Positions 39,925 through 56,498 of a stretch of 64,000 nt of DNA are shown one piece after another (the stretch's first letter is position 1; each line of letters begins with the position of its first letter). Origin of the DNA: an uncultured Pelagibacteraceae bacterium. Its GTDB lineage: Bacteria; Pseudomonadota; Alphaproteobacteria; Pelagibacterales; Pelagibacteraceae. The stretch lies in the NCBI GenBank assembly GCA_902557935.1, contig CACECJ010000002.1, positions 30,660-94,659 on the forward strand, read 5' to 3'. The position numbers were made by a program, and so were the translations under genes. The notes under the pieces were generated by a model. That model did not search any database. It was not told where the DNA came from and saw only the letters and a list, made by a program, of their open reading frames with translations.

Positions 39925-40619
39925 AGACTGAATCTTGATTTTTTACTATCTGTTAGAAAACCTTTAACAGTATCTAGTGTCATAGATTTGAAACTCTTAC
40001 CAAATCCCGCAATTTGATTTATTACTTTTGGTGGCATTGTAATTATATTGCAATTTAATTGTTTTGCTTGAATAAAGTTGTAAGCTTCTCTCGTACTAGC
40101 CCAAAGAATTTCAATATTTTTATTTTTCTTAGTTAAAGTGATGCTTTTTTTAAAAATCGGAAGAGGGTCTTTACCTTTATCAGCCATTCTGCCTGCAAAT
40201 ATTGAAATTATTGATTTTGTTTTCTTATTTAATTTTTTAAAAATCTTCTTAGTTTGTTCGAATGTGTAAACTGCAGTTATATTAAGTTTAATTCCTTTGT
40301 CACTTAATTCTTTGATGACTGGTCCTGTAAATACTCCTTTAGAATTTACAACCGGAATTTTTACGTAAACATTTTTACCCCAAGAATTAATTTCATAGGC
40401 TTGTTCCAGCATATCTTTAAAATTATCTGCAAATACTTCAAAAGAAATTGGTTTTTTTTTACAAACCTTTAAAATTTTAAGAGAATAATTTTTGTAATTT
40501 TTAGCTCCAGCTAATCGCATTAAACTCGGATTAGTCGTAAAGCCATCAACTAAAGACTTATTGTTAAAAAATTTAATTGTCTCATAGTCAGCAATGTCAC
40601 AAAAGATCTTTGTTTTCAT
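39921..40619 (-). CDS. tal: Transaldolase (FSA/TalC-like)
   Basis: MKTKIFCDIADYETIKFFNNKSLVDGFTTNPSLM, VKIPVVNSKG, ISIFAGRMADKG. Confidence 0.88.
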   Translation of the reverse strand: MKTKIFCDIADYETIKFFNNKSLVDGFTTNPSLMRLAGAKNYKNYSLKILKVCKKKPISFEVFADNFKDMLEQAYEINSWGKNVYVKIPVVNSKGVFTGPVIKELSDKGIKLNITAVYTFEQTKKIFKKLNKKTKSIISIFAGRMADKGKDPLPIFKKSITLTKKNKNIEILWASTREAYNFIQAKQLNCNIITMPPKVINQIAGFGKSFKSMTLDTVKGFLTDSKKSRFSL

Positions 40620-42022
40620 TAGTCTAAATTTTTAACTATGTCTTCTGTCATCTTTTTTGCATCTGCAAACAACATTAAAGTGTTATCTTTATAAAAGAGT
40701 TCATTATCTATACCGGCATACCCTGGTGATAAACTTCTTTTAACAAATAAAACAGATTTACATTTTTCAACATCTAGCACTGGCATTCCGAATATTGGAC
40801 TTTTTGGATCTGTTTTTGCTACAGGATTTGTTACATCATTTGCTCCAATTACAAATGCAACATCGGAATTAGCAAAATCGTTATTTATATCTTCTAATTC
40901 AAAAACTTCATCATAAGGAACATTTGCTTCAGCTAATAAAACATTCATATGGCCAGGCATTCTTCCAGCTACAGGGTGTATTGCGTAAGTAACTTTAATG
41001 TCATTTTTTTTTAATTTATCTACCATCTCTCGAAGAGCGTGCTGAGCTTGGGCTACAGCCATACCGTACCCTGGAACTATAATTACAGATGAAGCATTTT
41101 TCATCAAAAAAGCCGCATCTTCTGCGTTACCACTTTTAACTGGCTTTTGATCTTTCTTTTCTTTTTTATCATCAGTAGAATTGTCTGCTCCAAAACCACC
41201 TAGAATTACACTTACAAAAGATCTGTTCATGGCTTTACACATTATATATGAAAGTATTGCTCCAGAGGATCCGACAAGTGCACCTGTTATAATCAAAGCA
41301 GTATTTTCTAATGTAAAACCTATTCCAGCTGCAGCCCACCCAGAATAAGAATTAAGCATTGAAATTACTACAGGCATATCTGCTCCTCCTATAGGAATAA
41401 TCAATAAAACTCCGACAAGAAATGAGATTATAATTACAGTCCAAAAAATATTTGTAGACTGAGTTTTACATAGGTAAAAAATTAAAACAAATATACCTAT
41501 TCCAAGCACCAAATTTAAAATATGCTGACCACTAAATGTAATGGGAGCTCCAGACATTATTCCTCTTAACTTTAAAAAAGCTATTATAGAACCTGAAAAA
41601 GTTATCGCTCCTACTGCCGCTCCAATAGACATTTCAATTAGACTCGCTAATTTTATATCACCGACATTTCCTAGATTAAAAGCCGTGGGATTTAAAAAAG
41701 CTGCGATCGCGACAAAAACTGCTGCTAAACCTACTAAACTGTGAAAACCAGCCACTAATTCTGGCATTGCAGTCATTGGAATTTTAAAAGCTATAAAAGC
41801 ACCGATTGCTCCACCGATTACTAAGAATATAACTACATAAACTAGAGACGTTGAAAAATTTCCAATTGATAGGAATGTCACTACGATTGCAATTATCATT
41901 CCGGCAATTCCGAAGTAGTTTCCTTGTCTAGATGTATCTGGTGATGATAATCCTCTAAGCGCAAGAATAAATAATATTCCAGAAACTAAGTAAAAAATTG
42001 CTGCTAGATTAGCTGAGATCAT
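40619..42022 (-). CDS. pntB: NAD(P) transhydrogenase subunit beta
   Basis: IIVPGYGMAVAQAQHALREMVDKLKKNDIKVTYAIHPVAGRMPGHMNVLLAEANVPYDEVFELEDIN. Confidence 0.97.
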   Translation of the reverse strand: MISANLAAIFYLVSGILFILALRGLSSPDTSRQGNYFGIAGMIIAIVVTFLSIGNFSTSLVYVVIFLVIGGAIGAFIAFKIPMTAMPELVAGFHSLVGLAAVFVAIAAFLNPTAFNLGNVGDIKLASLIEMSIGAAVGAITFSGSIIAFLKLRGIMSGAPITFSGQHILNLVLGIGIFVLIFYLCKTQSTNIFWTVIIISFLVGVLLIIPIGGADMPVVISMLNSYSGWAAAGIGFTLENTALIITGALVGSSGAILSYIMCKAMNRSFVSVILGGFGADNSTDDKKEKKDQKPVKSGNAEDAAFLMKNASSVIIVPGYGMAVAQAQHALREMVDKLKKNDIKVTYAIHPVAGRMPGHMNVLLAEANVPYDEVFELEDINNDFANSDVAFVIGANDVTNPVAKTDPKSPIFGMPVLDVEKCKSVLFVKRSLSPGYAGIDNELFYKDNTLMLFADAKKMTEDIVKNLD

Positions 42023-42330
42023 TTCTTTTTATCTTTCTTTTTTTTGTACATTTGAAGCATTCTTTGAGTCACCAAGAAGCCCCCAAAAATATTTATTGCT
42101 GCTAAAATGATAGCTATAAATCCAAAGATACTCGATGTATTAAAAATACTCTCGGAACTTCCTGCTAAAGCTGCAATGATAGCACCTACAATAATAACTG
42201 ATGAAATAGCGTTAGTGACTGACATTAATGGAGTATGAAGCGATGGAGTAACACTCCATACAACATAGTAACCGATAAAGATCGATAAAACAAAAATGCT
42301 TAATCTAAATATAAACGGATCTATTTCCAT
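42019..42330 (-). CDS. NAD(P) transhydrogenase subunit alpha, TM part
   Basis: GYYVVWSVTPSLHTPLMSVTNAISSVIIVGAI. Confidence 0.96.
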   Translation of the reverse strand: MEIDPFIFRLSIFVLSIFIGYYVVWSVTPSLHTPLMSVTNAISSVIIVGAIIAALAGSSESIFNTSSIFGFIAIILAAINIFGGFLVTQRMLQMYKKKKDKKK

Positions 42331-42332
42331 AA

Positions 42333-43427
42333 TTAAACTCTTTTAATTAATGATTTTTCTATTATTTCGTCCTCTAAATTAATATTAAAATTTTTCTTCT
42401 CTTTACTATACAAGTTGCGGATAAAACTAAATAAGTTTTTAGCATATAAGTTTGAAGCAGTGAGTGGTAAACTATTCATTAAACTTTTAACTCCTATAAT
42501 CTTTATCCCATCTACTGAATTAATTTTGCCTGCTTCTGAAAATGCGGAGTTTCCTCCCTGTTCTGCTGCTAAATCATAAACAATTGACCCAGGCTTCATA
42601 AGTTTAACTAAGTCCTCCGTTAGTATTCTTGGAGCAGGTTTTCCAGGAATTAATGCTGTACATATAACTATGTCATTTTTTTTAAGAGCTTCTTTCATCA
42701 TCTCTGCTTGTTTTTTTTTATACTCATCTGATGCTTCTTTTGCGTATCCACCAGTAGTTTCCATATCTTCGTTTTGTTCAACTGTTAAAAATTTACCACC
42801 TAAGCTTTCTACTTGCTCTTTAGATGCTGCTCTTACATCAGTTGCCGAAACTATTGCACCCAATCTTTTGGCAGTAGCAATTGCTTGTAGTCCAGCAACA
42901 CCTGCTCCAATAACTAATATTTTAGCTGCTGGTACAGTGCCGGCTGCTGTCATCATCATCGGTACAGCTTTCTTAAATTCTGCCACACAATCAACAACTG
43001 CTCTATATCCGGCTAAATTAGATTGAGACGACAAAACATCCATTGATTGAGCTCTGGTTATCCTGGGTAACAATTCTAATGAAAAAAGTTTTATTTGTTT
43101 ATTTATAATTTTATCAATCCGATTTTTATTTTTGGCTGGATTGAGCATACCAATTAGAATAGTTTTCTCTTTTAAAATATTAATTTCTTCATCAGACGGG
43201 CAATTAACTTTAGTGATAAGGTTGCACGAGCTTAAAACTTCTGATGACGAATTCTTTATTTCAACTCCATTTTTTATGTACTGATCATCATTAATACCAA
43301 TATGAAGTGCATAATTTTTTTCAACACATACTCTCAGTCCAAGACCAATAATACTTTTCGCTGAGTCAGGGGTAATTGAGACTCTTTTTTCTAATGCTGT
43401 GTTTTCTTTAATTGAGCCTACTATCAT
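42333..43427 (-). CDS. NAD(P) transhydrogenase subunit alpha, NAD-binding part
   Basis: MIVGSIKENTALEKRVSITPDSAKSIIGLGLRVCVEK, VIGAGVAGLQAIATAKRLGAIVSATDVR. Confidence 0.97.
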   Translation of the reverse strand: MIVGSIKENTALEKRVSITPDSAKSIIGLGLRVCVEKNYALHIGINDDQYIKNGVEIKNSSSEVLSSCNLITKVNCPSDEEINILKEKTILIGMLNPAKNKNRIDKIINKQIKLFSLELLPRITRAQSMDVLSSQSNLAGYRAVVDCVAEFKKAVPMMMTAAGTVPAAKILVIGAGVAGLQAIATAKRLGAIVSATDVRAASKEQVESLGGKFLTVEQNEDMETTGGYAKEASDEYKKKQAEMMKEALKKNDIVICTALIPGKPAPRILTEDLVKLMKPGSIVYDLAAEQGGNSAFSEAGKINSVDGIKIIGVKSLMNSLPLTASNLYAKNLFSFIRNLYSKEKKNFNINLEDEIIEKSLIKRV

Positions 43428-43694: not shown

Positions 43695-43810
43695 GCCTGG
43701 CAACGTCCTACTCTCCCATATCTTAAGACAAAGTACCATCGGCGCTGAAGGACTTAACTTCCGAGTTCGGTATGGGATCGGGTGTAGCCCCTTCGCAATA
43801 ATTACCAGGC
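43695..43810 (-). rRNA. rrf: 5S ribosomal RNA, not adjacent to a 23S gene in this window
   Basis: Minus strand GCCTGGTAATTATTGCGAAGGGGCTACACCCGATCCCATACCGAACTCGGAAGTTAAGTCCTTCAGCGCCGATGGTACT...GGGAGAGTAGGACGTTGCCAGGC; ends pair. Confidence 0.97.
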
Positions 43811-52809: not shown

Positions 52810-52863
52810 TTGTGATTTTTATTTTGTATTGCATATACCTTGGTGAAAGTATATGTAATTATC

Positions 52864-53640
52864 ATGAAAAAAAAGATTTTAATAATGGGTCTACCTGGTG
52901 CAGGAAAAACTTATTTAGCCGAAAGACTTGCTCCATTAATTAACGCCACCTGGCTTAACGCTGATAAAGTAAGGAAAGAGGTAAATGATTGGGACTTCAG
53001 TCCAGAAGGAAGACAGAGACAAGCTAAAAGAATGAAAGATTTAGCCGAAAAATCAATAGAAGAAGGAAGGCACGTGATAGCTGATTTTGTGTGTCCAACA
53101 GAAAAAACTAGAATAGATTTTAATGCGAATATAATAATCTGGATGGATACAATCGAAAAAGGTCGATTTGAAGATACTAATAAAATTTTCGTCCCTCCTA
53201 AAAAATTTAATTTTAGAATTAAAGAAAAGAATGGAGAAATATGGGCTATGAAAATTGCGGAGGAAATAGAAAAATATAAATGGGATAATAAAAAACCCAC
53301 CGCACAAATGCTAGGCAGATGGCAACCGTGGCATGAGGGCCATCAAAAATTATTTGACGAAATTGTAAAGAAAACAGGTCAAGTAAACATAATGGTGAGA
53401 GATGTACAAGGAGTTGGTGATAACCCGTTTGATTTTTCTACAGTTAAGAAAAATATAGAGAATGCATTATCAAGTTTTGGTGAGAGAGTAAAAATTACAT
53501 TGGTGCCAAACATAACTAACATTTGTTATGGAAGGGGTGTAGGATACAAAATTGAAGAGATAGTTCTAGAGGAAACAATACAAAAAATTTCAGCAACTGA
53601 GATTAGAAAAAAAATGAGGCAAGAAGGAAAATTAAAATAA
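52864..53640 (+). CDS. Two-domain protein: APS-kinase-like P-loop kinase plus HxGH-type nucleotidylyltransferase (NadM-like)
   Basis: GLPGAGKT Walker A, LNADKVRKEVNDWDFSPEGRQRQAKRM, VIADFVCPTEKTR; C-terminal GRWQPWHEGH, DNPFDFSTVKKNI, ISATEIRKKM. ATG at 52864 preferred over 52840. Confidence 0.8.
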   Translation: MKKKILIMGLPGAGKTYLAERLAPLINATWLNADKVRKEVNDWDFSPEGRQRQAKRMKDLAEKSIEEGRHVIADFVCPTEKTRIDFNANIIIWMDTIEKGRFEDTNKIFVPPKKFNFRIKEKNGEIWAMKIAEEIEKYKWDNKKPTAQMLGRWQPWHEGHQKLFDEIVKKTGQVNIMVRDVQGVGDNPFDFSTVKKNIENALSSFGERVKITLVPNITNICYGRGVGYKIEEIVLEETIQKISATEIRKKMRQEGKLK

Positions 53641-55480: not shown

Positions 55481-55555
55481 TGGTGGACCGTGTAGGTAAC
55501 GCTCCTACTGCCTCTCGCATGTCAAGCGAGCACTCTACTTTTGAGCTAACGGTCC
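55481..55555 (-). tRNA. tRNA-Val(GAC)-like gene with degenerate D- and T-loops, CCA encoded
   Basis: Minus strand GGACCGT TA GCTC AAAAGTA GAGT G CTCGC TTGACAT GCGAG AGGCA GTAGG AGCGTTA CCTAC ACGGTCC A CCA. All four stems pair; D-loop lacks GG, T-loop lacks TTC..A. Confidence 0.8.
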
Positions 55556-55569
55556 TTTAAAAGATATCT

Positions 55570-55598
55570 ATAATAAATTATTTAGGATACTATTTCAA
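55570..55598 (-). promoter_or_regulatory. Possible sigma70 promoter of the tRNA-Val-like gene
   Basis: Minus strand TTGAAA - 17 nt - TATTAT, -10 ends 14 nt before the tRNA 5' end; chance match possible at this AT content. Confidence 0.4.
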
Positions 55599-56498
55599 TT
55601 CATCTAATATCATTTTTAAATTTTCTCTTGATTTATTTGAAATAAAGTTTTTTTTTAAAAATAATTCTTTAAATAAATAATAATTTTTTATGAATTTAAA
55701 TTTTTGTTTTACAAAACTAGGTAATAAAAATTTAATTATTTTAAAAGCTTTGTTAGGACTATATGAAAATGGTTTTTTATTTAATTTAAAAGTCACATTC
55801 TCTTTTATTTTAATCTTTTGCAAAAAAGACTTTTCGACCTCTATATTTAAAAATCGACAAAAATCCTTTAAAAATTTATTTTGATTAAATTGTAAATCTT
55901 CAAATTCAAAAAATTTTAATTCTTGTTCTTTAAAAACTTTCTTTAATTTTTCTTTATCATAAACACTAAATAATAAATTTAAGAAATACGCATGTTTATC
56001 TTTTTTTTCATATTTATCTAATAATTTATCTAGAGAAACACACTCTGGACCTAAAAATTTTACTAGTTGATTTTGTCTACTTATAAAAAGGGAAACTGTG
56101 CCTTCTAAGCGCTCACGCATAATTACAAAGTATCTGCAAGGTAAGTTTAAACCTGAAAAAAAATTGATTAAACGTTTTATTTTATCGTACTGAGATATTA
56201 CTTTAATATTTTTTTCATCACTATTATTATGATGCGGGACCATCCATCCTTCGTGTGAAATTAGATTAATATCTTTGGAAAGCTGTCGCTTAAATTTTGT
56301 TCTTAGGATTTGTAAATCTTGGTCTAGTAATATTCTATTACCTTCGATATAATCATATAATTCGTCAAAAATTTTTGAGTTTCCTTTATAATTTCTACCA
56401 AGGTAGTTAATTCTTTGAATATATGGATAAAAATTGGACTGCAATGCGGTTGAAGCTGATTTAGGAAGTCCGATATTAATGAATATTTTACAAGGCAT
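55590..56498 (-). CDS. Sulfotransferase-like P-loop protein
   Basis: KIFINIGLPKSASTALQSNFYP PAPS 5'-phosphosulfate-binding-like loop near N-terminus. Confidence 0.6.
   Translation of the reverse strand: MPCKIFINIGLPKSASTALQSNFYPYIQRINYLGRNYKGNSKIFDELYDYIEGNRILLDQDLQILRTKFKRQLSKDINLISHEGWMVPHHNNSDEKNIKVISQYDKIKRLINFFSGLNLPCRYFVIMRERLEGTVSLFISRQNQLVKFLGPECVSLDKLLDKYEKKDKHAYFLNLLFSVYDKEKLKKVFKEQELKFFEFEDLQFNQNKFLKDFCRFLNIEVEKSFLQKIKIKENVTFKLNKKPFSYSPNKAFKIIKFLLPSFVKQKFKFIKNYYLFKELFLKKNFISNKSRENLKMILDELK

Follow-up and report, generated by a model that had tools for sequence, protein, structure and literature searches.

The window, a 64,000-nucleotide stretch of DNA from an uncultured Pelagibacteraceae bacterium, carries a complete tRNA-Val(GAC) gene with an encoded A73-CCA end on the minus strand at 55481..55555, identified by ARAGORN, which called exactly this interval, by Rfam and by homologs in the family. 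The Rfam RF00005 score of 53.2 bits (E = 1.3e-8; cut-off, 29) was the lowest among the three tRNAs of the window. Read directly, the gene consists of acceptor strands GGACCGT and ACGGTCC, D-stem strands GCTC and GAGT, anticodon-stem strands CTCGC and GCGAG, and T-stem strands GTAGG and CCTAC, with TA before the D-stem, a single G after it and ACCA at the 3' end. All 21 of the 21 stem pairs form, G10:U25 being the sole wobble, which gives a cloverleaf with stems of 7, 4, 5 and 5 bp followed by A73 and CCA, and the anticodon GAC (55521..55523, minus strand) sits in the loop TTGACAT. The intact stems, the encoded A73-CCA and the GAC anticodon described in a first-pass annotation of this DNA were confirmed by ARAGORN, Rfam and direct reading. 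Minimum-free-energy folding of the bare sequence favored a non-cloverleaf structure, a preference that is common among tRNAs.

The D-loop, AAAAGTA (55536..55542, minus strand; A14 A15 A16 A18 G19 U20 A21), is 7 nucleotides long and has no G18, and the T-loop, AGCGTTA (55497..55503, minus strand; A54 G55 C56 G57 U58 U59 A60), has no T54, T55 or A58. The canonical D- and T-loop letters had been listed as missing altogether, which holds for these four positions and does not hold for C56, or for the one D-loop G that aligns with G19. Since G19 and C56 are retained, the exposed G19-C56 pair can still form, and it is the only one of the canonical elbow contacts (G18·Ψ55, G19-C56 and T54·A58) that is kept. 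Compared with canonical tRNA-Val(GAC) from other Alphaproteobacteria and from the sister family, the window gene has the same length, stems, anticodon loop, A73, CCA, G19, C56 and G57, but A18, A54, G55 and U58 in place of G18, U54, U55 and A58, respectively. It also has A60 for the usual pyrimidine, and A15 faces A48 of the variable loop AGGCA (55509..55513, minus strand) instead of forming the usual Levitt pair. By inspection, the other tRNAs found in the genome were all canonical (24/24). As far as its letters tell, the gene is a variant of translational tRNA-Val and not a typical member, and T54, Ψ55 and m1A58 modification is ruled out in it.

The gene lies within an island made up of sugar and surface genes, which begins beside a 5S rRNA gene (43695..43809, minus strand; Rfam) and the NAD(P) transhydrogenase genes pntB and pntA (40619..43427, minus strand), a conserved landmark near the tRNA-Val locus of relatives. 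The island matches hypervariable region HVR2, which in Pelagibacter HTCC1062 is described as a cell-surface region of 48 kb lying between 5S and 23S (PMC2217521), and the neighbors of tRNA-Val vary among genomes of the same genus. Upstream and co-directional is an open reading frame of 302 aa with no Pfam match (55590..56498, minus strand), whose stop falls 34 nt before the tRNA and which is likely the source of read-through. A promoter-like TTGAAA-17-TATTAT (55570..55598, minus strand) ends 14 nt before the tRNA with 10/12 matches, a score that 9% of shuffles equaled. It was not seen at the other tRNA-Val loci, which share no conserved promoter, and a conserved promoter of the gene's own was rejected on that ground. 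At 55 of the 57 loci that could be scored, a co-directional gene ends close to the tRNA, from 21 nt within it to 81 nt ahead of it, and in 34 cases this gene is rpoD; the tRNA often follows rpoD in genus g4 and pntB in genus g12. The simplest route to a mature product would be read-through transcription, mainly from the gene directly upstream, followed by processing.

Some loci showed further peculiarities. At L053 and L054 (also L052, L057 and L061), the reading frame of the upstream gene extends into the tRNA and reaches its stop there, and in the first two the last residues, GPLAQK, and the stop codon consist of tRNA letters, with the stop in the D-arm. The window open reading frame at 52840-53640 has an APS-kinase-like domain and a C-terminal stretch that by eye resembles a nucleotidyltransferase, and a similar frame lies directly before or overlaps the tRNA at L061 and apparently at L052. 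In genus g4 (L250, L059), the tRNA comes immediately after rpoD and has variable sequence on its other side, a layout that looks as if island insertions had used the tRNA 3' side.

Distribution of the gene and of its elbow

A blastn search of 397 family genomes recovered homologs of tRNA-Val(GAC) in 149, the window's own included, and in 103 of the 140 more complete ones. A canonical elbow was present in one of the 149, a genome designated G137. Of 297 genomes sampled from the order, 171 contained the exact elbow pattern, and every one of these belongs to the window's family; the scan returned none in 53 genomes of the sister family (0/53) and none in about 380 other alphaproteobacterial genomes. 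Homologs in 148 other family genomes, together with the exact elbow in those 171 genomes of the order, exclude a sequencing error, which the first-pass annotation had named as a way in which its reading might fail. The gene is missing from many genomes of the window's genus and is thus not essential there.

Among 17 distinct homologs, standard pairs formed in 374 of 374 cells (the 21 stem pairs and a 16-59 pair), and 13 of the pairs were changed on both sides; none of 500 shuffles and no slid control came close to this figure. The anticodon loop, A73, CCA and G45 were invariant, as were A14, A15, A18, G19, A54, G55, C56, U58 and A60, and A57 replaced G57 in a few relatives. Positions 26-44 hold either G·A or A·G, depending on the SAR11-type homolog; the label SAR11-type relies on the first-pass annotation and on gene order. 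That a non-standard tRNA is under selection here, as the first reading of this gene had proposed, is strongly supported by homologs in the family in which every stem pair is kept.

A normal valine tRNA is also present in the family. In 30 of 37 SAR11-type genomes checked, exactly one canonical-elbow valine tRNA was matched, always Val(TAC); none was matched in the window's own assembly, which is 83% complete. Because Val(TAC) is also present, tRNA-Val(GAC) is dispensable. When 70 genomes were searched independently of the D-stem, canonical Val(GAC) turned up in the sister family and in many other Alphaproteobacteria, and within the window's family only in G137, a genome that is 63% complete. 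That copy excepted, the rewired tRNA is the only Val(GAC) seen in the family, and in much of the family it would have replaced the canonical alphaproteobacterial Val(GAC). The acceptor, D-stem and anticodon arm of the canonical G137 gene are identical in sequence to those of the rewired gene of another genome, G226 (83% identity over the whole gene). Each of the two is co-directional with pntA and lies upstream of it. Together this suggests a loop exchange inside a single orthologous gene.

Outside the family, the same elbow was found in phage tRNAs, in tRNA arrays of Verrucomicrobia and in candidate-phyla bacteria. A scan of bacterial genomes for this elbow, restricted to anticodons whose last letter is not C, yielded 47 stretches, mostly from Verrucomicrobia, candidate-phyla bacteria (Daviesbacteria, Gottesmanbacteria and others) and Solobacterium. 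In the complete Daviesbacteria chromosome CP066688.1 (820 kb), 44 tRNAs were found with a single tRNA-His among them, and its D-loop is AAAAGTA and its T-loop AGCGTTA. Unless a second tRNA-His was missed, the rewired elbow must read all histidine codons of this chromosome, and so must support translation there. The cultured Pseudomonas phage 16Q carries a tRNA-Ile with the rewired elbow, and a tRNA of the KIL phages is 94.6% identical to it. For phage tRNAs of this kind, pattern scans and not blastn were informative, as the window tRNA, used as a blastn query against phage records, yielded partial matches only. The tRNA-Ile matches from Escherichia coli Phapecoctavirus were set aside, the one inspected (ESCO13) having a canonical elbow, and a search of viral contigs with the methyltransferase neighboring tRNA-Val gave no relatives. 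The Verrucomicrobia contigs (L290, L292-L297 and L325-L333) hold dense tRNA arrays in which most T-loops are non-canonical; T-loops TGCRA, GGCRG, CGCRA and AGCGT go with A18G19 D-loops, and these arrays and the other fetched genome contigs together cover 29 anticodons.

A phage-derived tRNA captured by SAR11-type bacteria, and now serving mainly as a recombination or attachment site of the island, would account for an elbow that is common in viral contigs and was not found in the roughly 380 other alphaproteobacterial genomes, for flanks that differ right up to the gene ends, and for the nearest compared sequences usually being phage tRNAs (identity 0.71-0.81, versus 0.69-0.77 for alphaproteobacterial Val(GAC)); a SAR11 tRNA-Val hosting a prophage has been reported (PMC7542561). 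Overall, however, the SAR11-type gene resembles phage tRNAs about as closely as it resembles the canonical alphaproteobacterial ones, the tRNA 3' end is single-copy in the window (allowing up to 3 mismatches of 18 nt), and the canonical gene of G137, with the same arms and the same position near pntA as in G226, favors conversion in place. We consider this combined reading of capture and present role unlikely, and such an origin would in any case leave the translational constraint in force.

Covariation at the elbow contacts

A scan of viral contigs for this T-loop with the D-loop left free gave at least 120 stretches, and most of the listed matches were full cloverleaves with intact stems. 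The fetched loci were then scanned for all cloverleaves, with a scanner limited to short variable loops, and the D-loop of each was compared with its T-loop. Among 1017 distinct viral tRNAs, whose frequencies are biased because patterns for this elbow were used to collect the loci, canonical TTCRA T-loops went with G18G19 in 766 of 767 cases, and T-loops with G55 occurred mostly with A18G19 D-loops. We also assembled 515 tRNAs with 7-nt D-loops from viral contigs and bacterial genomes, a set in which no gap placement was needed. Here the 18-55 combination was G·U in 285, A·G in 216 and something else in 14, counts that are inflated by kinship of the sequences. Positions 18-55 and 54-58 gave the top non-helical couplings of this set, with a 15-48 coupling also visible, and they stayed on top after similarity weighting. 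The same two couplings led when the scanned-for AGCGT class was removed, a comparison less affected by the fetching bias, and in the 322 viral tRNAs outside that class 18-55 was G·U in 277 and A·G in 39. The 19-56 pair covaries in a few of the 515 tRNAs, with G-C, A-U, U-A and C-G all found.

Positions 18, 55, 54 and 58 are known elbow contact positions (PMC4810234), so that the unusual letters can be read as compensatory replacements at the same contacts, and the strength of the two couplings likewise points to compensated contacts. With respect to the canonical elbow, G18·U55 is exchanged for A18·G55 and U54·A58 for A54·U58, and G19-C56 is unchanged. The tRNA had initially been described as being without the elbow; covariation at 18-55 and 54-58 argues that the elbow is rewired with compensated contacts, not lost. 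The D- and T-loops would meet through A18·G55 (for G18·Ψ55) and A54·U58 (for T54·A58), in a geometry that we infer from covariation, and the retained G19-C56 would stay on the outside as the platform that the ribosome and RNase P see. A contact between 16 and 59 probably forms in addition, and is likely in the AGCGT and GGCRG classes generally. In the survey of all tRNAs from the viral contigs (IMG/VR), other combinations were also observed, namely T-loop TTTGA with G18A19, TTAGA with G18U19, TGGGA with A18C19 and ATCGT with GG, so that both 19-56 swaps and 18-55 swaps are present there.

Our initial model was a continuous D-loop/T-loop helix (16-59, 18-58 and 19-56) instead of a modified standard elbow. 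Positions 16-59 are A-U or U-A in 17 of 17 SAR11-type sequences and are correlated within the AGCGT class, and suppressor tRNAs with such helices have reportedly been selected by the Steinberg group. However, position 18 tracks 55 and not 58, A18/G55 occurring with A58, U58 and G58 alike, and 16-59 is often U·U in phages, where a strict Watson-Crick 16-59 pair, true of the SAR11-type set, fails. After the wider coupling survey the helix was dropped as the main reading, and we now regard it as improbable.

Function and wider meaning of the rewired elbow

We consider it probable that this is a working accessory tRNA-Val for GUU and GUC in ordinary translation, transcribed mainly by read-through. 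As an accessory isoacceptor it would read GUU and GUC, which make up 46% and 8.5% of the valine codons of the window, respectively. Published valine identity elements are A35, C36, A73 and G45, with G45 and G20 as minor elements (PMC9976931); the first four are present and invariant in tRNA-Val(GAC), position 20 is U, and charging by ValRS would be expected. An accessory valine isoacceptor kept in the island had been suggested from the start, and the patchy occurrence of the gene, its place in a hypervariable surface-polysaccharide island and a Val(TAC) that serves the family all support it.

The first-pass annotation had alternatively suggested a role in surface modification. Certain staphylococcal tRNA-Gly isoacceptors serve peptidoglycan synthesis; apart from a changed consensus in the D- and T-loops they are normal tRNAs, and the window tRNA shares this feature. 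Use of the charged tRNA outside translation, for peptidoglycan, lipid or surface modification, would suit a non-standard elbow, dispensability in relatives and, in this genus, a position among polysaccharide genes. We judge it very unlikely, as no match to FemAB (PF02388) or FemAB-like (PF13480) proteins was found in the window's assembly (G000, 83% complete), the valine anticodon loop and A73 are invariant, the gene often follows rpoD (g4) and pntB (g12) and not fixed surface genes, and the same elbow serves translation elsewhere, on the sole tRNA-His of a complete genome. A decaying pseudogene or remnant of an integrated element, to which the patchiness in the genus, the hypervariable island and the low Rfam score might point, is rejected and has almost no chance of being correct, because the stems are perfect in divergent genomes (no mismatch in the 17 distinct homologs) with compensatory changes, the loops are invariant and their changes compensated and not random, and CCA is kept; as a general account of these sequences, decay is already refuted.

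In passages of PMC7912444, eukaryotic initiator tRNAs are described with a variant T-loop containing A54·A58, a purine likewise replacing U54 in tRNAs that still work in translation; unlike the window tRNA, with 54-58 as A·U and 18-55 as A·G, they keep A58. The tRNA-Pyl and type II mitochondrial tRNAs treated in passages of PMC7609411 resemble the window tRNA in being without the G18G19 or TΨC motif, but they have unusual cloverleaves or lost D/T contacts, whereas in the window tRNA the cloverleaf is standard and the contacts are compensated. Passages of the same review give a 16-59 contact in tRNA-Sec (C16:C59, U16:U59), like that indicated in the AGCGT and GGCRG classes, although the window tRNA is not a selenocysteine tRNA and has standard 7/5 arms. 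A natural A18·G55 elbow is not described in the review passages on tRNAs without GG/TΨC (tRNA-Pyl, mitochondrial) or on A54 initiators, and a full-text literature search on G18/A18/G55 in tRNA loops gave nothing relevant. The suppressor-tRNA literature may anticipate parts of the picture. Zagryadskaya, Doyon and Steinberg in 2003 and Kotlova in 2007 are said to have obtained active suppressor tRNAs with alternative 54-58 and D/T contacts from D/T-loop libraries; those were laboratory selections, and the window elbow is natural, widespread and conserved.

To our knowledge, the elbow contacts are regarded as close to universal, with mitochondria and a few special tRNAs as exceptions. The rewired elbow in phage and bacterial tRNAs, including the sole tRNA-His of one complete genome, indicates that this supposedly near-universal feature has a working alternative. 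A natural, covarying replacement on a tRNA of which a living genome has no other copy would mean that the ribosome, RNase P and the CCA enzyme accept a different elbow, and this at a contact, 18-55, that is reported to be important for translocation in work cited in a passage of PMC4810234. Chances are about even, in our estimate, that these sequences represent a second natural elbow code, with 18-55 as A·G for G·U and 54-58 as A·U, G·G or U·A, which spans at least 38 anticodons in viral contigs, fills the Verrucomicrobia arrays, is the sole version of a tRNA in some cellular genomes and would allow folding without host elbow modification. Where U55, and often U54 and A58, are gone, there can be no Ψ55, and T54 or m1A58 is likewise excluded wherever its letter has been lost; freedom from these modifications is one idea why the alternative was favored; such tRNAs would fold without the host's elbow modification and may escape host factors that recognize the elbow. 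A natural replacement also makes the role of T54/Ψ55 modification testable, and tRNA-finding programs can overlook a class of phage and bacterial tRNAs or score its members too low. In one phage tRNA-Ile(GAT) with this D-arm (L082:1997-2650; also L083 and L085), an open reading frame without an Rfam intron match is inserted right after the anticodon and the 3' half is missing, and in L082 an intact tRNA-Ile(GAT) with T-loop ATCGTAA follows the interrupted copy.
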